Part shown: positions 8,606-19,403 of the stretch, one piece after another
Layout of the letters: each line of letters starts with the position of its first letter
Position numbering within the stretch: position 1 is the stretch's first letter
IMG/VR virus record: IMGVR_UViG_3300034061_004897
Coordinates: 1 to 21,488 of that record
From: a virus
Direction: 5' to 3' (one strand)
DNA: 21,488 nt
Notes under the pieces: generated by a model
Seen by the model: the letters and a program-made list of their open reading frames with translations, nothing else
What the model was told of the DNA's origin: nothing
The model's database searches: none
Program-made: the position numbers and the translations under genes

Positions 8606-9328
8606 ATGCCTTTACCTAAAATTAATACTCCAACTTATGAGTTGGAAATTCCTTCAACTGGAAAAAAGATAAGATACAGACCTTTTCTAGTTAGGGAAGA
8701 AAAAATTCTTATCATGGCACTAGAATCTGAAGACATGAAGCAGATAACCAGTGCTATTGTTCAGATTCTGACAGAATGTATTCTTACAAAGGGAGTTAAA
8801 ATTTCTGATCTAGCAACTTTTGACATTGAGTACATTTTCTTAAATTTAAGAGCTAAATCAGTTGGAGAAACTGTTGAAGTTAATGTGATTTGCCCAGATG
8901 ATGGAGAAACACAAGTTAAGATGGAAATTGATATTGATGAGATTAAAGTTCAAAAAGATACGGAACATACTCAAATAGTTAAATTGGATGATGAACTTTC
9001 AATGAAGATGAAGTATCCTTCATTAGAACAGTTTGTTGAAAATAATTTTGAATATAATAGTGATAATAATGATGTTGATAAATCTTTAGATATGATTGTT
9101 TCTTGTATTGATATGATTTACAATCAAGAAGAGTCTTGGTCTGCTGTCGACTGCACTAAAAAAGAAGTGAAGGAATTTGTAGATCAGATGAATACCAAGC
9201 AGTTGACAGAAATTGAAACTTTCTTTACTACAATGCCTAAATTATCCCACAAAGTTCAAGTCAAAAATCCAAAGACCAAAGTTGAAAGTGAAGTAGTTCT
9301 GGAGGGTCTTGCCAGTTTTTTCACTTGA
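8606..9328 (+). CDS. 26: gp26 baseplate hub assembly protein
   Basis: This 240-residue protein resembles the T4 gp26 / T4-like baseplate protein family (T4 gp26 is 208 residues). Family features are the N-terminal TPTYELEIPSTGKKIRYRPF and LVREEKILIMALES, a four-stranded middle containing VGETVEVNVICPDDGE (the zinc-ribbon-like loop has only one Cys here), an acidic PSLEQF region and a helical C-terminus with EIETFFTTMPKLSH. T4 gp26 is needed to assemble the hub. The stop overlaps the region before gp51, and the last codons contain a TTTTTTC slippery heptamer, so a longer frameshifted product is possible. SD AGAGG supports ATG 8606. Confidence 0.85.
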   Translation: MPLPKINTPTYELEIPSTGKKIRYRPFLVREEKILIMALESEDMKQITSAIVQILTECILTKGVKISDLATFDIEYIFLNLRAKSVGETVEVNVICPDDGETQVKMEIDIDEIKVQKDTEHTQIVKLDDELSMKMKYPSLEQFVENNFEYNSDNNDVDKSLDMIVSCIDMIYNQEESWSAVDCTKKEVKEFVDQMNTKQLTEIETFFTTMPKLSHKVQVKNPKTKVESEVVLEGLASFFT

Positions 9329-9342: not shown

Positions 9343-9519
9343 AGCCTTGAGTCATATTTCAAAATTAATTTTGCCATGATGCAGCACCATAAATATTCTT
9401 TGACAGAGCTAGAAAATATGATGCCTTGGGAAAGAGAAGTTTATGTTTCTCTTTTACAACAACATGTTGAAGAAGAAAACTTAAAAGCGCAGCAAAGTGG
9501 AAATCGATCAGGTTTATAA
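9331..9519 (+). CDS. 51: gp51-like hub assembly protein (short form)
   Basis: This is a 62-residue protein from ATG 9331 (an in-frame TTG at 9325 also exists). LESYFKINFAMMQHHKYSLTELENMMPWEREVYVSLLQQHVEEE has the short helical pattern with the PWERE.Y motif seen in cyanophage gp51 and in the second part of many tail assembly chaperones. T4 gp51 is much longer and is required for hub formation without being clearly a virion part. There is no SD at normal distance from the ATG; GGAGGG is 24 bases away and the start lies within a small hairpin. Expression by coupling or -1 frameshift from gp26 therefore looks likely. The 3' end overlaps the next gene by 23 bases. Confidence 0.75.
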   Translation: MAHTSLESYFKINFAMMQHHKYSLTELENMMPWEREVYVSLLQQHVEEENLKAQQSGNRSGL

Positions 9520-12103
9520 GGCACCATCTATTCCCAAATTAAATCGTAGAAATATTAAGTCTACGTTAATTAGTGGTGCCATTAAACCTGGTGTTGAACT
9601 AAAGAAGACAAAATTTAGTTTTATTAAACCTTTAGCGAAGTTAATTCCAGACTCTTTAGTTCCGATCAAAGAGGATGAGAGCAAAAGGGAAGCATTAGTT
9701 AAGTATATACAGTCTAATTTTGGGATACATAAAGTATTAGAACAGTCGAATAAACTGTTATCCCAAATCAAAGATCAATTATCTTTAGATTTTCTTTCTA
9801 GAATTAGAGAAGAGAAAAAAGATCTAGAAGAATCTAAAAAAAGAATCGCAGCAGAAAAGGTTAAAGATAAAGAAAAAAAATTAGAGAGCGGTGGCGTAAG
9901 AGGGTTTTTAGGTAAAACATTTAGTACACTTCTTGCTCCAGCAAAGAGTATTTTTCAAAAGTTAATTGACTTCTTTTCAATAATACTGACTGGAATTTTA
10001 GTTAATAGTGCTTTTAAGTGGTTACAAAAACCAGAAAACCAAGAAAAACTTAAACAGTTCTTTCAGTTTCTAAAAGATTATTGGAAAGAACTTCTGATAG
10101 TTTTTGGTGCAATTAAATTATTAGGATTAGTTAGAAAAGTTTTAAAGGTTGCGAATGCTCTTAAAAGTCTTATAGAGTTCTTCAAGAAAAAACCACAACT
10201 ACCTTGCAATTGTCCAAAATCTCCTGCACAAAAAGGAGGACTTCCAGATTGTGAACCTATTAAAGATTGTGTCGATAGTTTAGTTAAAGATCCGAAGAAA
10301 GGACCTGGATTTTTAGAAAATCTTGCCGAATCATTATTAGGAACAAAAGCATTCGCTCCATTTTTACTTTTATTAGGAAAACCACTACAGACACCTCAAC
10401 CTAAAGCACAACAACCTGCTCAACAACCAGCACAACAACCGGCACAACAACCTGCACAACAACCAGTAAGAAAACCAGTATCACCACAACAAGTTCCTCT
10501 TTTGAAAAGAGGAGGTCCTCCAAAAGGTTTGACTGATTACATTAATAATTTACAAAATCAACCAACTGCCGAAGCAAAATTATTCAAACAATTAAACTTA
10601 CCTTCTTGGAGTATTCCAATTGTTGAAGCAGTTCTTACATCTGCTACCATGGGATTAGGTAGAGGACGTGGAATTGGTTCTGCAGGTAGAATAAGAATTA
10701 ATCCACAACAATATCCTCGTCCACTTGGCCCCTATCCACAATCAATTCAAAGTCCAGTACGACCAATAAAACCAGTTAATACTACTTTAAGTGTTCCAGA
10801 ACTTCCTGCTCAACCTACTCGTTTATTAGATAGAGTACGAGTTACTGGTGCTAGTGGTAAAAAAACTATTGTCAGAAACCAAAGATTATTTTCAAATTTA
10901 GCATATAAATCTGATAAACAACTAGTTAGTAAAATAACAGAAGATCCAACAACTTCAACAGAATTTCTTAAGTTTTTAAAGCAAAGTCAATCTTTTACTA
11001 GGTCTGGATCTGATCCAAAAAATTTAAAAACTATAAATGATTTTGCAGAAATGCAAAATATTCCTGTTGAGCAACTTATACAAAGTCAAACAAAAAACTT
11101 TAGATCATATTTGCAAAATCAATATGTTGTTAGTAGAGAAAAGGGTGGAACAATCCCAAAAATTTCACTGTTTGCTGGAGGTGGAACTGTTGGAGGACCT
11201 GGCGCATTAGGTGTTGATAGCGTTCCTGCTGCGATAGCATCTGGGGCAGGAAAACTTGCTAACTATGGAAAGGCACTACTCGCACCTGGTGAAGAAGTTA
11301 TTAATACTCGTGCATCTATGCTTTTCAGACCGTTACTGAAAGACATTAATGATAATGCTGCTAGGATGTGGCAGAGTTTTACAAATGCGGTAAGAAGACA
11401 AGATGCTGTTAATAATATTAAGTCTGGTATAATTGAAGAACTGAATAAAATTTTAGAAGAATTTAAAGCATTATTAGATAAAGAGTCTAATGATATAAAA
11501 AGAAAAAATAGATCAGCAAGAAAACCTCCTGGTGGTGGTGGATTTAGACCATCCTTTGGTGGTGCTAATCCAATTCAAAAAATTGATAAAGGAGTTGGTG
11601 GATTAGTTCAAAATGTTGGTGGAATGCTAGGTAAAAATCAAGGAAAACAAACTGGAATTCCTGGAGGTGGATTTATTGGTGAGCAACTTGGAAGAAATGA
11701 AGCAGATAGAAGATATGAGGATCTTAAAAATTCAATTAGAGAACTTATGAATAAATCTAGATCTAATATTTCTAGACCAAATATTAATGTTCAAAATCCA
11801 ATAAATTTAACACAAAATATAGTTAATCCGGAAATTGAAAAAACTATACTAGGTAATCAAAACATATATGTTATTCCCGTACCAGTTTCTAGAGAAACAT
11901 CCAAATTGTCTAGATCCAAATCCTCTGGTGGAAATATTAGTGTTATAAACCTTCCACCAAAAACGGTTAATTTATCTAAACCAAAATCTAAACCACTACC
12001 ATCATCACCTTCCGGAACATCATTACCGTCTATTTCTCCTATTGATCAAAGTAATGATTATGTGTTTACAACACCTTCTATGTACGGCATTCTAGTAGTC
12101 TAA
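9497..12103 (+). CDS. Large tape-measure-like tail protein
   Basis: This 868-residue protein starts at GTG 9497 inside gp51; no ATG near the 5' end is available. Residues ~85-130 are charged and coiled-coil-like. A hydrophobic segment follows (FFSIILTGILVN, ~160-171), then a second (KELLIVFGAIKLLGLV). Next are four cysteines (C237, C239, C252, C258) and a five-copy AQQP repeat (residues ~304-323). Around 558-612, the GGG-TVGGPGALGVDSVPA...LLAPGEEVIN stretch resembles the Gly-rich D-S-V-P-A/P-G-E segment common in tape-measure proteins. A Pro/Ser/Asn-rich tail ends it. Position right after gp26/gp51 is where tape-measure genes follow chaperones. No T4 gp29 similarity was recognised by eye. Its N-terminus is related to the next gene's. 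Confidence 0.75.
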   Translation: MEIDQVYKAPSIPKLNRRNIKSTLISGAIKPGVELKKTKFSFIKPLAKLIPDSLVPIKEDESKREALVKYIQSNFGIHKVLEQSNKLLSQIKDQLSLDFLSRIREEKKDLEESKKRIAAEKVKDKEKKLESGGVRGFLGKTFSTLLAPAKSIFQKLIDFFSIILTGILVNSAFKWLQKPENQEKLKQFFQFLKDYWKELLIVFGAIKLLGLVRKVLKVANALKSLIEFFKKKPQLPCNCPKSPAQKGGLPDCEPIKDCVDSLVKDPKKGPGFLENLAESLLGTKAFAPFLLLLGKPLQTPQPKAQQPAQQPAQQPAQQPAQQPVRKPVSPQQVPLLKRGGPPKGLTDYINNLQNQPTAEAKLFKQLNLPSWSIPIVEAVLTSATMGLGRGRGIGSAGRIRINPQQYPRPLGPYPQSIQSPVRPIKPVNTTLSVPELPAQPTRLLDRVRVTGASGKKTIVRNQRLFSNLAYKSDKQLVSKITEDPTTSTEFLKFLKQSQSFTRSGSDPKNLKTINDFAEMQNIPVEQLIQSQTKNFRSYLQNQYVVSREKGGTIPKISLFAGGGTVGGPGALGVDSVPAAIASGAGKLANYGKALLAPGEEVINTRASMLFRPLLKDINDNAARMWQSFTNAVRRQDAVNNIKSGIIEELNKILEEFKALLDKESNDIKRKNRSARKPPGGGGFRPSFGGANPIQKIDKGVGGLVQNVGGMLGKNQGKQTGIPGGGFIGEQLGRNEADRRYEDLKNSIRELMNKSRSNISRPNINVQNPINLTQNIVNPEIEKTILGNQNIYVIPVPVSRETSKLSRSKSSGGNISVINLPPKTVNLSKPKSKPLPSSPSGTSLPSISPIDQSNDYVFTTPSMYGILVV
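10406..10465 (+). repeat. Five tandem 12-bp repeats encoding AQQP
   Basis: Five in-frame copies of GCNCAACAACCN encode (Ala-Gln-Gln-Pro)x5 in the 868-residue protein. Copies differ only at third positions (GCA/GCT, CCT/CCA/CCG). It is a likely extended linker and a site where copy number could vary by slippage. Confidence 0.95.
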
Positions 12104-12109
12104 TAAATC

Positions 12110-14914
12110 ATGAAACTAATAGAAACAAAACCAACAGAAAAATCATCAAAGAAATTAAAGTTGAGTATCTTCAACATTAAGAGTCTTTTGGTTTTTAATA
12201 AAAAGAAATTAGATAAAATTAAAAAAGAAAAGAAAAAGTTTTCTTTATTTCAAATGAAGAAAAAGAAAGTTGAAGAGAAAGAAAATAAGATTGAGTCTCC
12301 ACGTACTGTTGGGTCTACATTAAAGAATATTGGTAAAGGTTTATTGGCAAAACCATTAAGTATTATTGATAAATTAAAAGAATTTTTTGGTATAATACTT
12401 TTAGGTGTTCTAGTTAATAATTTACCTACTATAGTTAAAAAACTTCAAGATGTATTAGGTCAAATAAAGAAATTTTTTGAAGATAATCCATGGATTGGTA
12501 AAGTTATAACATTTACGTTTGATATTATTGCCAAAGGCATGATGGGCATTTTAGATTTAACCAAAGTTTTGATGCCTGTAATTGGTGGTTCATTTAAGTT
12601 TGCTCTTGATACTATTAAAACTGCCGGAAAAGAAATTGGAAAAGCAATAACTTTATTTGATCAATTAGATGCCGGTATTAGTTCCGTAATGTCTGCTTTT
12701 GGGTACAAACCACCCGCAAAAGCAGCACAAACATATGCTAAAAGTAAAGGAAAATATTATTCAAACACAACTGGAAAAACTTATGCAAATTATAAAAGTG
12801 CATTAAAAGACCCTAAAGTAAAGCAAGGTGCTCAACAGCAAGCAACGCAGAAATCAAAAAAAATACGCCAAGTTTCAACAGCATCTGGAGGATCTTATAA
12901 TCCTAATACTGGTTATACGTATAATCCAAATTTTAAAGATCCTGCACAGGCAGTTGGAGTTTTAGCACCAAAGGCTGGTGTAATGGGGACTATGATACCT
13001 GGTCAAAAAGATACTTGGAGAGAGTATGGACCAGGAGAAAATAAAAATATCTATAAACAAAATGTGCAGAGATATAGCACCGTAAATCAAGCACAAAAAG
13101 TACAAAAACTCGCTATTGGTGGAACAGTTAGAAACTTCTTTGGTAATATGTTTGGTTCTAGAAGAGGACTGGGAAACATACCACCACAAGAAGGAACTGG
13201 AAGAGGTGGTCCGTCTGATATTAGAATGGCAACTAAAGATAGTGGTAAAACTTATGCAAGTCCTTATGCATCTCCTGGAGGAACTGCTAAAGGAAGAAAG
13301 GCAAGAGAAACTGTAAATTACTTTAAATTCTTTGAGAATAATGTTAAAAATGAAGAACGTAATTTAGTTGGTGAAGAAAAAAATCTCACTATGTTTAGTG
13401 AGTTCATGAAGAGTTATAGTAATCTTCTTGATATAAGAAAGAAATATAGAGATACAGATTCTGAAACAAGGAGAAATAGAAATGCCCAAACAGAGTCTCC
13501 AGATGATTATGATCCAGGTGAAGTTGGATCATTTGCATCTGGTGCTTATATTGGACCTCCGGGAGATGCTGATGGGGAACAAACTGGTCTAAACATGAAT
13601 TTACCTGGAGGAATAGGAACTCCAATTTATGCCCCAAGAGATTTAATTTACAAGAAAAAAGGAACAAATGGTGGTCCATCTGTTGGTCTTCAAGGAACAC
13701 CCGATGCATTAGGACCATCAGGATCTGGATTTGGATTTTATGGTTCTTATTTTTTCAAAGAAAATGATAAAGAATATGAAGTTCTTATGGGGCATTTTAA
13801 AGATATGCCATATAAGGGATCTAGTGATGGGGAAATTATTAAAAAGGGAACTTTATTAGGTTATCAAGGTGCTTCTGGAAGGAGTGTTAGTTCATCTAAT
13901 GGAGTTTATCCACACATTTCACTCCATTTAAATGGTGTTGGATTTCAAGCATCAAATCAAGAACTAGTAAAATTTGCTAATTCATTGAGAGCTTCTGGTG
14001 GAACTAAAGCAGTTTCTTCTAGTAAACCCAGCGCAAGTGCTTCTGGATTAGCTAGTTTTTATGGAGGTCCATTTGACAAATATTGGCACGGAAGAAAAAC
14101 TGCAAGTGGTCAAGTATTTGATGAAAATGCATTTTCTGCAGCATTAAAAGATGGTCTTCCTTTTGGAATGTATGAAGTTGCATATAAAAATAAAACTGTT
14201 TTAGTTCGTGGAAATGATCGTGGAAATTTCGGTCCAGGAAATACTGCTGGAATTAATCCTCCAAAAGATTTTGATTTATCATATGGCGCAGCAAAAGCTC
14301 TTGGTATAACATCGGATGGTAGAGGTGGTGTAGGAAGAATTACTTATAAAAGAGTTGGTGATTTAAAACCAACTGGAGGTGGAATAATTACAAAACCAAA
14401 ACCACCAAAACCTTCTACTCAAGCATCTCCACAAGCAAAAATGGATGCTCAATCTTTGAGAACTAATATCTCAAATTTAATGGGAGATTTGGGTGTTACT
14501 AAAAAAATATTTGGACAGCAAAATTTATCTGTAGAGATTAAAGATGGAAAATTAGAAATCAAAGATACTAGAGGTGTTTTTGGAACAGGTTTATTTCAAT
14601 CTAATTATGATACCAAAGGTTCTAATTTAAAACTACTTAAGGATATAGAAAATTATTTAAAATATGAATTAAATAAAAAAAGAGAAGAACAAAATAAACC
14701 AGGAGCAGGAGCATCAGGTTATGGTGGTGCTAGTGCCAGCATTAAAAATGTAGATGATACAGATAAAAAAGATTTAGTTATTGTGAAAGAAACATTAGTT
14801 GCTGTTGTTGAAAGTCCACCCGAAGTAATTACTAATACGGTAAATAATTATGTTCCTATTTTGATCTCTCAAGGAACTTCTGCTTCAAGAAGTTTAAGAT
14901 CTACACTTTCATAA
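12110..14914 (+). CDS. Hub/tape-measure-like protein with degenerate M23 and RlpA-like domains
   Basis: This is a 934-residue protein. Residues 1-60 are Lys-rich, and ~72-103 repeat the LLA..LSI..KL.EFF.IIL.GVLVN segment of the preceding protein. A Gly/Ser/Thr/Tyr-rich middle follows. Residues ~490-610 look like an M23 peptidase fold (GTPIYAP, LMGHFKD with H562, IKKGTLLGYQGASGRS, PHISLHL with H602), but the usual His and Asp of H-x-G-I-D are Q491 and N495 and the second His of HxH is Ser604, so it may be inactive. Residues ~646-749 are an RlpA-type double-psi barrel: ASFYG, HGRKTASG, FGMYEVAYKNK, NDRGNF with D703, DLSYGAAKALGI. This could cleave peptidoglycan during infection. It ends in an acidic/Val-rich tail. 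Confidence 0.8.
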   Translation: MKLIETKPTEKSSKKLKLSIFNIKSLLVFNKKKLDKIKKEKKKFSLFQMKKKKVEEKENKIESPRTVGSTLKNIGKGLLAKPLSIIDKLKEFFGIILLGVLVNNLPTIVKKLQDVLGQIKKFFEDNPWIGKVITFTFDIIAKGMMGILDLTKVLMPVIGGSFKFALDTIKTAGKEIGKAITLFDQLDAGISSVMSAFGYKPPAKAAQTYAKSKGKYYSNTTGKTYANYKSALKDPKVKQGAQQQATQKSKKIRQVSTASGGSYNPNTGYTYNPNFKDPAQAVGVLAPKAGVMGTMIPGQKDTWREYGPGENKNIYKQNVQRYSTVNQAQKVQKLAIGGTVRNFFGNMFGSRRGLGNIPPQEGTGRGGPSDIRMATKDSGKTYASPYASPGGTAKGRKARETVNYFKFFENNVKNEERNLVGEEKNLTMFSEFMKSYSNLLDIRKKYRDTDSETRRNRNAQTESPDDYDPGEVGSFASGAYIGPPGDADGEQTGLNMNLPGGIGTPIYAPRDLIYKKKGTNGGPSVGLQGTPDALGPSGSGFGFYGSYFFKENDKEYEVLMGHFKDMPYKGSSDGEIIKKGTLLGYQGASGRSVSSSNGVYPHISLHLNGVGFQASNQELVKFANSLRASGGTKAVSSSKPSASASGLASFYGGPFDKYWHGRKTASGQVFDENAFSAALKDGLPFGMYEVAYKNKTVLVRGNDRGNFGPGNTAGINPPKDFDLSYGAAKALGITSDGRGGVGRITYKRVGDLKPTGGGIITKPKPPKPSTQASPQAKMDAQSLRTNISNLMGDLGVTKKIFGQQNLSVEIKDGKLEIKDTRGVFGTGLFQSNYDTKGSNLKLLKDIENYLKYELNKKREEQNKPGAGASGYGGASASIKNVDDTDKKDLVIVKETLVAVVESPPEVITNTVNNYVPILISQGTSASRSLRSTLS

Positions 14915-14918
14915 AAAT

Positions 14919-16208
14919 ATGTCAAGTTTTTCAAGAGCATCTCAATATAAAGAAATTAAAATCACTAGAGATAATACTAGTGTTTTTATAGATTGGAAAA
15001 CGGTAGATTTTTCATATTATGAAAGTATTTTTTCACCTATAGTTACCGCAAGTTTAACATATGTTGATACTGGAGATCTTGTTCGTTCAAATAGATCAGT
15101 AGACGTTCAGGAAAGAAGTGGAACTTTATTAGAGGCACTTCCTATTCAAGGTAGGGGAAAAGAAAAAATTTCTTTTAAAATAGAAAATGCATCTGGAGAA
15201 CTTGATTTTACGTCTGATCCAATGGTAGTTTCTAATCCTATTCCACTATTTCAGGAAAATAATCAAAGAGAATCTGTTTCATTACAATTAGTTTCAAAAT
15301 ATTCTATTGATAATGAAAATTCCAATATTTATTCAAAATATTATAATACAATCTCAAGTTCTATAGAAAAAATTTTAGTAGATGAGTTAAAAATTTCAAG
15401 CGATAAATTGGAGATTGATTCTACTTCAAATAGCGATTCTATTGAGGGATCTGGACAGAGAGCATTTGATATTTGTATAGAAATGGCAACTAGATCTGTA
15501 TCCACTTCTGGTGGTCCAGGATTCTTTTTTTGGGAAACTAAAGATGGATTTCACTTTAAATCTTTGGATAATATAGTAACATCAACACCGGTAGAAACTT
15601 ATAAATACCACCCAATTTCACAAAATCATATTGAAGGAACTGATGTTAATTATAGAATCTTAAATACACCAAGTTATAAAAATAATTCAAATCTTTCCAA
15701 TGATTTAAGATCTGGTCTGTTTAGAACTAAAAATATATCTTTTGATTTTAGCACATTTAGTTATAAAGAAGAATTTATTAATTTATCAAGTCTTGGATTT
15801 GAAACATTAAACAATTATACTGATTATTCTGATGTTTTTGATGAAAAAGAAAATTTTACAAGAACTAATTTCTTTGTTTTAGATTCTGGTCTCAATAATC
15901 CAGGCATAACTACAGTCGTTACTAATAATCAAAGATTTTATTTGCCACAATCTTTAATGAGATATAATTTATTAATGACACAGGTTTTGGATATTTTAGT
16001 TCCTTGTAATTTGAAACTAAAAGCAGGTGATGTTATAACATGTGAATTTGTAAAAATATCTTCAAGTAATTTAAGTTCTGGGTCAATAGGACAACTACAA
16101 AGTGGAAATTATCTTATTACACATCTATGTCATAAATTTACTTCAAGGTATTCTTATACTTCTTTAAGAATAGTTCGTGATACATTCGGAATATATAAAG
16201 GTAGTTAA
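14919..16208 (+). CDS. 27: gp27-like baseplate hub protein
   Basis: This 429-residue beta-rich protein is close to T4 gp27 in length (391). It opens with YKEIKITRDNTSVFIDWKTVDFSYYESIFSPIVTASLTYVDTGDL, the typical tube-like first domain, then a second domain with GSGQRAFDICIEMATRSVS...GPGFFFWETKDGFHFKSLD, a pattern shared by gp27/gpD-type hub proteins, and ends with LKAGDVITCEF and GNYLITHLCHKFTSRYSYTSLRIVRDTFG. In T4, gp27 is the trimeric adaptor between six-fold tube and three-fold spike and binds gp5. Here it is immediately followed by the gp5 OB-fold gene, as expected for a hub-spike pair. The start is 4 bases after the previous stop. Confidence 0.82.
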   Translation: MSSFSRASQYKEIKITRDNTSVFIDWKTVDFSYYESIFSPIVTASLTYVDTGDLVRSNRSVDVQERSGTLLEALPIQGRGKEKISFKIENASGELDFTSDPMVVSNPIPLFQENNQRESVSLQLVSKYSIDNENSNIYSKYYNTISSSIEKILVDELKISSDKLEIDSTSNSDSIEGSGQRAFDICIEMATRSVSTSGGPGFFFWETKDGFHFKSLDNIVTSTPVETYKYHPISQNHIEGTDVNYRILNTPSYKNNSNLSNDLRSGLFRTKNISFDFSTFSYKEEFINLSSLGFETLNNYTDYSDVFDEKENFTRTNFFVLDSGLNNPGITTVVTNNQRFYLPQSLMRYNLLMTQVLDILVPCNLKLKAGDVITCEFVKISSSNLSSGSIGQLQSGNYLITHLCHKFTSRYSYTSLRIVRDTFGIYKGS

Positions 16209-16727: not shown

Positions 16728-19403
16728 ATGACAGCATCAAAAACATTTAATGCGGATTTACCACATTACTTTAAAGAAGAAATTGGAAAAGATAAAACAT
16801 ATTTTGTAAAAGAATCATACTGCAATTCCCTTTCATATGAATCTTATAAGCAACTTTGTGAAATTCCACAAACAAAAGCGTCTGCTTGTGGAAATGATCA
16901 AGTTAGTCAAATATATAAAACTTTAAAAAAATTTTTTATAGTACTAAGAGGTCTTAAAAAATATCTTGATAAGTATGTAAATCAAACAATAAATGCAGTT
17001 ACAAATCTTCAAGCAGAAATAACTGCAACAATTAATGAAATAGTTGCAGTATTAAAATCTCTGGTTCATAGAGCTAGAGAATGGGTTCTTAAAAAAGTTA
17101 AAAAAGGTTTGGAAGATGTTTTATTTACTGCAGAAACTCCACAATCAAAAGGTCCAAAAAAAGCATTACTTTCTAGAATTATAGATGAAATTTTCTGCAA
17201 ATTTGATGATATTATATCTGGATTATTTAATTTAGTTGGAGATTTTTTATATGCTTTAATAGGTCAAGTTATTAACATTCCTTTCTGTGCAGCCGAAAAT
17301 TTTGTTAATTCTTTACTTAGTAAACTTCTTACTGACATTGACAATGCACTACAACCTATTTTTGATCAAATTAATAAGGTTTTAGCACCAATTTCTAAAA
17401 TAATGGGATCAGTATTTCAAGTTGTAGATTATATACTTGGATTTGAAGGATTTTTATGCGAAAAACCAGAATGTAATGATGAACTAAAACAATTTGAAGC
17501 TGGTCCTTGGGGAAGACCTCAAAACACTAAAACTGACAATTGGTCTAATTTTTCTTTTAGTTCCTCTATAGGTCGAGGTGCAAATCAAGTATTAAATGAT
17601 TTTTTTGGTAAAGGATCTGATGGTAAATATATTTCTCCTGGTGGATGCTATCCTGGAGAATTTGAATGTTCAACAGAAGTTCAATTTTTTGGTGGAGGTG
17701 GATCTGCAGCAGTAGGTTCTGCAGTTGTTAATCAAATAGGTCAAGTTGTAGGTGTTAATTTATTTTATGGAGGTTCTGGATATACATCCCCACCATTCGT
17801 TAGTTTTGTCGATTCGGGTGGATGTGGTAGAAATGCCAGTGGACATACTAAAATAGATAACGATACTGGAGAAGTAACAGATGTCGTAATAGATAATCCT
17901 GGAATAGGATGGACTACACAATCTCCAAATTCACCAATTATTACTAAGTTTTTAGGAACACCAAATCCAATTCAAGTAGAAAATGAAATAACTTTAAGTT
18001 GGGAGGTTTCTAATGCAACTAAAGTTTCTTTAGGGATTCCTGGATATACTAATTTACCTCTTGTTGGAAGTCAAAAAGTAGCGATTACTTCTTCAGATGT
18101 TGATTTTCCTGCAGGAAAGTTTATTACCAATAAAACATTTACTTTGACTGCAACAAATAGTATTCCACCATGGTCTCCGTTAGAAATCATTAGAGAATTA
18201 AATGTACAAGTTACATCACCAGAAGGATATGGATCTACAGATATTACCGATCCAATATCTACAGAATCTCCTATAATAAACGGATTTGGTGTAAATCCGG
18301 AAATAGCAGAAGTTGGGCAAGTTATTAAATTTACATGGTCAACTTCTAATGCAACTTCTGTTGAACTTGGAATTTTAAATTCTTCTGGAAATGTAACATC
18401 AATTTACACTAATTTAATTTCCAATGGTTCTGCATCATTGGTTCTACCAAACGATTTGGTATTTCCTAGCAGTGGTGCCAATTTAATTAATACTTATGTT
18501 TTAACTGCAATTAATTCTAAAGCTCCTTCTGGAAAAAATAAAGATGTAAAAAATACAACAGTAACTATAGTTTCACCAACAACTCTTTTACCAGATTGGA
18601 ATTTTCCATCAACACCGGGAGCAACACAAATACCAATTGCACTTGGTGATATAACCGGAACTCAAGTAGATAATACCGAACTTCCTGGAGGTGCTAATTA
18701 TAATTTTAATCCAAATCCTTCAGGATCATTTTTGGATATATTACCTGGTGGTGGTGGAGGAGGTGGTGATATTCCCGAAGGAGGTGGAGGTCAAACTCCT
18801 GAAGGTGGTGAAGATAATACTGGTGGTCCATCAAATTCAAATTCTGATTTTCCATTAAGTGGAAATCAAGGAGGAGATACTAATGGAGGAGGAGCTGGTA
18901 TAGATCCAGTTGGATCCGGAGATCAAGTAACTCCTGTGTCGGATTCTACGGGTGCTGGAGTAGGTGGTGGAAGTGGAATTTCTTTACCAATAGATTTAAC
19001 TGGTACAGGAGAAATTCCTGGGCAAATACCTATTGTGGGTGGGGATGGTGGAGGTATTGTTATTACTCCAAACGATGTTATATCTGAAATTAATGAAATT
19101 GAAATTATTGATACTGGAAGTGGTTATTCTCCAGATGATACTATTGAAATAGTAGGAGGAAATAATAATGCTCAATTGGAATTAGTAACAACTCCAATTG
19201 GTCAAATAGTTGACATTAAGATTATATCTGGTGGGTATGGATTTACTACACTTCCAGAAATTAGAATAAATACTATAAATGGAGTTGGTGCAAAATTTAG
19301 ACCAATTTTAAGATTTATCTCAGCATCAAAATTTAGTAATAGAGAGTTGCAAAGAATAGGAACAGATAAACTTTTAAAAATAGTGGATTGTGTAATAAAA
19401 TAA
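16728..19403 (+). CDS. Modular virion structural protein with paired Ig-like and GGSGY modules
   Basis: This is an 891-residue protein. Residues ~60-250 are helical/amphipathic with several Cys, and residue ~348 starts a GGSGYTSPPFVSF motif preceded by GQVVGVNLF. Two similar Ig-like modules follow (NPIQVENEITLSWEVSNAT.., ~413-498; NPEIAEVGQVIKFTWSTSNAT.., ~522-616). A Gly/Pro/Asp/Asn-rich linker (~660-780) leads to a second copy of the GxGY/GQIVDIKIISGGYGF motif (~796-835). The duplicated modules suggest a fibrous or adhesive part. Position after the gp5 OB gene suggests it is attached to the central hub or needle. The exact role is unknown and I do not recognise a T4 counterpart. Confidence 0.75.
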   Translation: MTASKTFNADLPHYFKEEIGKDKTYFVKESYCNSLSYESYKQLCEIPQTKASACGNDQVSQIYKTLKKFFIVLRGLKKYLDKYVNQTINAVTNLQAEITATINEIVAVLKSLVHRAREWVLKKVKKGLEDVLFTAETPQSKGPKKALLSRIIDEIFCKFDDIISGLFNLVGDFLYALIGQVINIPFCAAENFVNSLLSKLLTDIDNALQPIFDQINKVLAPISKIMGSVFQVVDYILGFEGFLCEKPECNDELKQFEAGPWGRPQNTKTDNWSNFSFSSSIGRGANQVLNDFFGKGSDGKYISPGGCYPGEFECSTEVQFFGGGGSAAVGSAVVNQIGQVVGVNLFYGGSGYTSPPFVSFVDSGGCGRNASGHTKIDNDTGEVTDVVIDNPGIGWTTQSPNSPIITKFLGTPNPIQVENEITLSWEVSNATKVSLGIPGYTNLPLVGSQKVAITSSDVDFPAGKFITNKTFTLTATNSIPPWSPLEIIRELNVQVTSPEGYGSTDITDPISTESPIINGFGVNPEIAEVGQVIKFTWSTSNATSVELGILNSSGNVTSIYTNLISNGSASLVLPNDLVFPSSGANLINTYVLTAINSKAPSGKNKDVKNTTVTIVSPTTLLPDWNFPSTPGATQIPIALGDITGTQVDNTELPGGANYNFNPNPSGSFLDILPGGGGGGGDIPEGGGGQTPEGGEDNTGGPSNSNSDFPLSGNQGGDTNGGGAGIDPVGSGDQVTPVSDSTGAGVGGGSGISLPIDLTGTGEIPGQIPIVGGDGGGIVITPNDVISEINEIEIIDTGSGYSPDDTIEIVGGNNNAQLELVTTPIGQIVDIKIISGGYGFTTLPEIRINTINGVGAKFRPILRFISASKFSNRELQRIGTDKLLKIVDCVIK

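Follow-up and report, generated by a model that had tools for sequence, protein, structure and literature searches.

A conserved degenerate M23-fold domain beside an RlpA-type barrel in an exchangeable cassette of a T4-like cyanophage tail gene

Results

The window, by which we mean the whole 21,488-bp stretch of the uncultured virus record IMGVR_UViG_3300034061_004897, is related to T4-like cyanophages, and its nearest isolates are S-SKS1, S-SRM01 and P-SSM2. Its genes run in the order tail tube, gp26, gp51, an 868-aa protein, a 934-aa protein, a phrog_350 tail protein, a gp5 OB-domain protein and an 891-aa protein (Table 1). A sequence-only reading of this DNA had proposed that the 934-aa tail protein, hereafter the carrier, combines an M23-like region with an RlpA-type barrel, and both domains were confirmed. 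The span assigned to them in that reading (13595-14357, residues 496-749) begins just after Gln491 and Asn495, whose codons start at 13580 and 13592. The histidine missing from the barrel, the exchangeable cassette and the conserved family of disabled M23 domains, all described below, were not part of it.

Table 1. Features of the carrier gene and its surroundings (window coordinates; L-numbers denote related viral contigs or loci)
Feature	Position	Strand	Remark
gp26-type baseplate hub protein	8606..9328	+	
868-aa neighbour	9497..12103	+	N-terminal region in common with carrier
Carrier ORF, 934 aa, tail/baseplate protein	12110..14914	+	between 868-aa ORF and phrog_350 tail protein
Hydrophobic segment of carrier, residues 91-109	12380..12436	+	
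Stretch swapped for unrelated enzyme domains in L005-L007	13461..14767	+	
Degenerate M23-fold domain, residues 473-623	13526..13978	+	
Gln491, first metal-ligand His position	13580..13582	+	alignments
Asn495, metal-ligand Asp position	13592..13594	+	alignments
His562, conserved catalytic His (GHF)	13793..13795	+	invariant in family
Tyr600, first (catalytic) His position of HxH	13907..13909	+	
His602, second (metal) His of HxH	13913..13915	+	invariant
His606, family-specific residue (with Asn608)	13925..13927	+	invariant
Stretch over barrel, different RlpA type in L002/L003	14018..14421	+	
RlpA-type double-psi beta-barrel, type A, residues 646-756	14045..14377	+	
Leu679, where compared RlpA barrels have AAH/VAH His	14144..14146	+	
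Asp703 of NDRG, putative catalytic acid	14216..14218	+	kept
phrog_350 tail protein	14919..16208	+	
gp5 OB-domain protein, 167 aa	16218..16721	+	without lysozyme domain
Rest of gp5 (phrog_1922 211-664), separate 891-aa ORF	16728..19403	+	without lysozyme domain

The hydrophobic segment near the N-terminus of the carrier is also present in several of its positional equivalents. The 868-aa and 934-aa proteins resemble each other N-terminally, at 36% over about 106 aa, in a region that contains hydrophobic segments. The middle of the 868-aa protein contains PAQQ repeats and is strongly divergent between contigs that are otherwise near-identical, such as the window and L004. In phage S-CREM2, which has a tail of 418 nm, the proteins at the two positions measure 1565 and 1456 aa; by analogy with these sizes and this tail length, a tape-measure role is a candidate idea worth testing for the 868-aa and 934-aa proteins.

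Profile searches as suggested by the sequence-only reading gave a clear match for the barrel (see below) and a sub-threshold one for the M23-like region when single sequences were used: PF01551 matched the whole 934-aa protein at E 0.026 and the isolated domain at 7e-4. At the level of the family (dM23, for degenerate M23), all 32 representatives matched PF01551 at E<1, the best at 4.5e-5, which is under the curated cut-off. By hhalign, a 39-member dM23 profile matched nine M23 domains with 98.1% probability (E 1e-13). The AlphaFold2 model of the domain alone, built from a 39-row alignment, reached a pLDDT of 83.6 and a pTM of 0.80, with lower confidence at model residues of about 1-20, 60-70 and 120-130. 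When this model was compared with the PDB by Foldseek, the first 23 matches were all M23-fold structures (LytM, Csd1/Csd2, phi29 gp13, DipM and others), at TM-scores of only 0.4-0.5. As judged from the model, the dM23 domain has an M23 fold, but a remodelled one. The view that the domain is not M23 at all, which the single-sequence Pfam value of 0.026 might suggest, was dropped given the family, profile and fold evidence. A model of the M23 domain and the barrel together, from a shallow alignment, had a pLDDT of 48.6 and was set aside.

With the domain as query, viral contigs yielded 24 loci and then 31; the C-terminal half, blind to the Hx3D ligands, yielded 55, and a wider profile brought the family to 63 viral loci, with a gene position common to nearly all of those examined. 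In examined contigs that extend far enough, the dM23 carrier lies after gp26 and before the phrog_350 protein. L161 (2217-5480) departs from this pattern: it is a contig of T7-like appearance in which the dM23 domain forms the C-terminus of a 1087-aa protein adjoining two other large internal-virion-like proteins; from this case, the domain appears to have moved between unrelated virion types. A tblastn search of the domain against 50,697 phage records returned weak M23 matches only (E 0.7 or worse), and no isolate of the dM23 family was found in this collection. A scan of bacterial genomes with a few exact peptide patterns found neither the dM23 domain nor the type A barrel.

M23 enzymes bind zinc through the H(x)nD motif and the second His of HxH; the other His of this motif, the first, activates water, and a further catalytic His is located some 30-40 residues upstream (PMC9662197). 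Folds of the M23 type that lack part of the catalytic set have been described as degenerate and non-peptidase (PMC9662197). The carrier lacks two of the three metal ligands (Gln491 and Asn495 take their places) and one catalytic His. The placement of Gln491 and Asn495 at the metal-ligand positions agrees with the sequence-only reading, and its Hx3D register is right because the homologue L054, which has all three metal ligands, carries His and Asp at these positions in the same register. The HxH register in that reading, in which Ser604 was a substituted ligand, was two residues off. With the PF01551 HxH columns 82 and 84 calibrated on three intact motifs, Tyr600 falls on column 82, His602 on 84 and Ser604 on 86, and all the sequence methods used (Pfam, HMMER, hhalign and MAFFT in three modes) give this register; the earlier one, based on the P-H shared with GPHLH, was dropped as improbable at the level of sequence. 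As aligned, His602 is thus the kept third ligand, Tyr600 replaces the catalytic His and Ser604 takes the position of the Glu that follows. His562 and His602 are indeed retained as first read, in all 39 members, and only the role given to His602 had to be changed to that of the second His of HxH. His606 and Asn608 are likewise found in 39 of 39 members. At position 600, no member has His and 36 have Tyr, so the whole family lacks the first His of HxH, while the extra catalytic His (His562) is kept throughout.

The pair at 491/495 occurs in six states among the members (QN, QD, DN, HN, EN and HD), a distribution that takes nine or more changes on the tree and is not the behavior of a zinc site under selection. 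The dM23 domain is otherwise under purifying selection, with a dN/dS of 0.14 between the window and L059 (dS 0.46). It is possible, although unlikely, that the domain has remained an enzyme through a rebuilt site, with His562, His602 and His606 joined by Tyr600, Ser/Thr604 and Asn608 in a new metal or acid-base center acting on peptidoglycan. The extreme conservation of exactly these residues would fit such a center, as would the full set of metal ligands in L054 and the peptidase of phage A-1(L), which is active despite departing from the Hx3D motif in our alignment. Against it, the water-activating His is missing in every member, positions 491 and 495 are free to vary (Q/H/D/E and N/D), and folds of this kind are regarded as non-peptidase (PMC9662197). 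The alignments instead support the loss of peptidase chemistry and a non-catalytic role of the dM23 domain; the reduction of the M23 domain in the sequence-only reading is upheld, with its residue assignments corrected.

The barrel matched PF03330 (DPBB_1) over carrier residues 646-744 at E 7.7e-10, above the cut-off, as well as phrog_7930 (5e-17) and the PDB entry 4avr (PA4485). By these profile matches, its RlpA-type identity is certain. The NDRG motif is intact, as first reported, and holds Asp703, the putative catalytic acid of an RlpA lytic transglycosylase. The His of the AAH motif, which we take to be catalytic and essential in Pseudomonas aeruginosa RlpA, is absent, the carrier reading AAL(679)KDG. 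This His is present in the barrels of A-1(L), N1, Acinetobacter RlpA, PA4485, L002, L075 and L082, whereas the four type A barrels seen, those of the window, L018, L173 and L174, all have Leu in its place. Two RlpA matches labelled as Acinetobacter phage (H1 and H2) have bacterial neighbor genes (mrdB, mltB), and we counted them as bacterial RlpA. In L173 and L174, the type A barrel sits in another carrier with an M15/VanY-like stretch upstream, identified by eye. In Vibrio cholerae RlpA, the predicted active-site mutant D145A does not support growth (PMC8820737), and D145 probably corresponds to the Asp of NDRG. Glycan cleavage by the type A barrel of the carrier is putative, and its activity is uncertain because the AAH-motif His is missing.

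Two further explanations bear on these residues. One is that neither domain cuts, the barrel binding or loosening wall glycan without hydrolysis in an expansin-like manner and the M23 domain serving as a structural spacer. We consider this improbable: Leu679 in 4/4 type A barrels and the 79-84% conservation of the type A barrel between different carriers speak for it, but Asp703 and NDRG are kept, and clear glycosidases (GH24, Phage_lysozyme2 and SLT) stand at the same place in relatives, which suggests an enzymatic need at this position. The other, a cassette that has lost its function and is decaying, could draw on the catalytic residues missing from both domains. It is extremely unlikely, being already contradicted by selection: dN/dS is about 0.14, the motifs are invariant across dozens of contigs and the reading frame is intact in the relatives read.

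Comparison with close relatives points to an exchangeable module. L005-L007 have about 93% DNA identity to the window up to 13460, are unrelated until 14768, and from there return to about 80% identity in a block that extends into the following gene. Between these breakpoints they encode a permuted M23 domain and a Phage_lysozyme2 domain. In this M23 domain (L005:9380-9840, also in L006 and L007), TGPHIHLE comes first and FHAGED and GHL follow, with the catalytic residues complete; from this motif order it looks like a circular permutant placed before the Phage_lysozyme2 domain. L002 and L003 keep the dM23 domain (86-90% identical) and differ in the type of RlpA barrel. Other partners of dM23 domains are a GH24 lysozyme, Phage_lysozyme2, an SLT-like domain (L031, by eye), a SleB-like domain (weak Pfam match) or none. 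Even sister dM23 domains have unlike partners: the window has RlpA-A and L059 RlpA-B, and L071 has RlpA-A and L021 none. These comparisons show that the carrier is retained among relatives while the cassette is swapped as an exchangeable module at one baseplate locus.

In most dM23 carriers, no partner enzyme was recognised within the protein itself, so the pairing of M23 domain and enzyme is not obligatory. In the subset scanned, the upstream neighbor and gp5 also lack a wall enzyme, except for an SLT-type lysozyme domain in the neighbor of L100. This scarcity is a further point in favor of the rebuilt dM23 site considered above.

No lysozyme domain was detected in gp5, either in the two gp5 ORFs of the window or in 12 isolates (S-SKS1, S-SRM01, nine more and S-CREM2), although many records name gp5 a tail lysozyme. 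The window thus does not have the T4-type arrangement of a lysozyme domain within gp5. The split of gp5 into the 167-aa OB-domain protein and the 891-aa protein also occurs in close relatives and many examined contigs; the isolates examined have a single gp5 of about 620-1010 aa.

At the carrier position, M23 domains were found in S-SRM01, S-H9-1 and S-PM2, Phage_lysozyme2 in S-SKS1, both in B23, VanY in DSL-LC03 with SLT next door, and GH24 in S-CREM2 with GH19 next door. No wall-hydrolase domain was detected in the carriers of Bellamy, S-SSM7, P-TIM68, syn9 and P-SSM2, and the S-T4 protein had no Pfam match though its record names a muramidase. The S-H9-1 protein gp216 (L168:4096-7008), annotated as hypothetical, has an intact M23 domain followed by an amidase-like C-terminal stretch, seen by eye and with no Pfam match listed. 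The S-CREM2 proteins gp208 and gp209 are virion proteins by mass spectrometry, with 73 and 71 unique peptides (PMC10665884). They are the two proteins before the phrog_350 protein, and these positional equivalents have glycosidase domains.

Discussion

The closest known counterpart of the carrier is the hub protein gp15 of cyanophage A-1(L), with its homologue in Nostoc phage N-1, in which an RlpA-type barrel and an M23-type domain also occur in one cyanophage baseplate protein. A-1(L) gp15 contains lysozyme, RlpA-like 'endoglucanase' and M23-like 'peptidase' domains, and its RlpA-like and M23-like domains attack Anabaena cells (PMC10966104). The A-1(L) barrel is about 39% identical to that of the window. 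However, the A-1(L) domains lie inside a VgrG-like hub, whereas those of the window lie in a separate variable protein; and while A-1(L) has an intact HxH in the peptidase, the AAH His in the barrel and demonstrated activity, the key residues are gone from the carrier.

The dM23 domain also resembles EnvC, NlpD, DipM and Csd2, which are M23 folds with an incomplete catalytic set kept by selection (PMC9662197). An M23 fold with incomplete catalytic residues, the mark of degenerate LytM proteins, is what we found. Unlike these cellular division or shape factors, dM23 is encoded in a phage tail gene and has its own fixed residues (Tyr600, His606 and Asn608). An EnvC/NlpD-like role can be imagined, in which virion-borne dM23 docks on and activates a host cell-wall amidase or a co-delivered glycosidase in the periplasm. 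Such activation would account for the lack, in most carrier proteins, of a recognised wall enzyme of their own, and, if true, the phage would open the wall with a borrowed enzyme; we regard this as quite improbable.

The likeness to the T4 gp5 tail lysozyme lies in the presumed role, a local opening of the wall during entry, and in the adjacent genes; in T4 the lysozyme is inside gp5, whereas in the window the wall domains are in the protein two genes upstream of gp5. Five Kyanoviridae genes at the same position before phrog_350 (S-SRM01 gp041, S-H9-1 gp216, S-PM2p210, B23 gp10 and S-CREM2 gp209) encode wall hydrolases, namely M23 domains with intact HxH and/or lysozyme domains, and none of the five has dM23 or the type A barrel. 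The lack of a detectable lysozyme domain in gp5, together with wall hydrolases at the carrier position in several isolates, makes an upstream carrier of wall enzymes a good reading. This agrees with the part of the sequence-only reading in which a wall enzyme replaces the gp5 lysozyme; the part in which the barrel is an active lytic transglycosylase is weakened by Leu679 in place of the AAH His.

On balance, we favor the explanation that the carrier belongs to the tail/baseplate of a T4-like cyanophage and breaches the wall in place of the missing gp5 lysozyme, with a non-catalytic M23 domain and an exchangeable glycan-active module. Swaps of whole enzyme domains at this spot, beside the disabled M23 domain and the barrel, suggest that the carrier rather than the usual tail lysozyme breaches the wall. 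The N-terminal 446 or so residues and the C-terminal tail would form a constant carrier with the exchangeable cassette in between. The carrier would travel with the tail and probably be exposed to the periplasm on contraction. Its dM23 groove would most likely bind peptidoglycan, a wall peptide or a partner protein, and the neighboring RlpA-type barrel may open the glycan strand during entry. Virion location is experimental only for the S-CREM2 positional equivalents, and wall lysis only for the related A-1(L) barrel.

The combination of RlpA and M23 in one cyanophage baseplate protein (A-1(L), N-1) and degenerate M23 domains in bacteria are already known. In the open literature, subscription journals being outside the scope of the search, we found no lysozyme-less gp5 and no degenerate M23 domain of a phage tail. 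Relative to that literature, the conserved family of apparently peptidase-dead M23 domains in tail genes, the type A barrel and the exchange of cassettes at a single baseplate locus appear to be new.

T4-like cyanophages are among the most abundant viruses of the ocean. A separate, fast-swapping carrier as the wall-breaching part would allow entry, and possibly adaptation to host walls, to be tested one gene at a time. With a selected M23 domain that is peptidase-dead and encoded in a phage tail gene, the theme of degenerate LytM factors would reach beyond bacterial division to virus entry.
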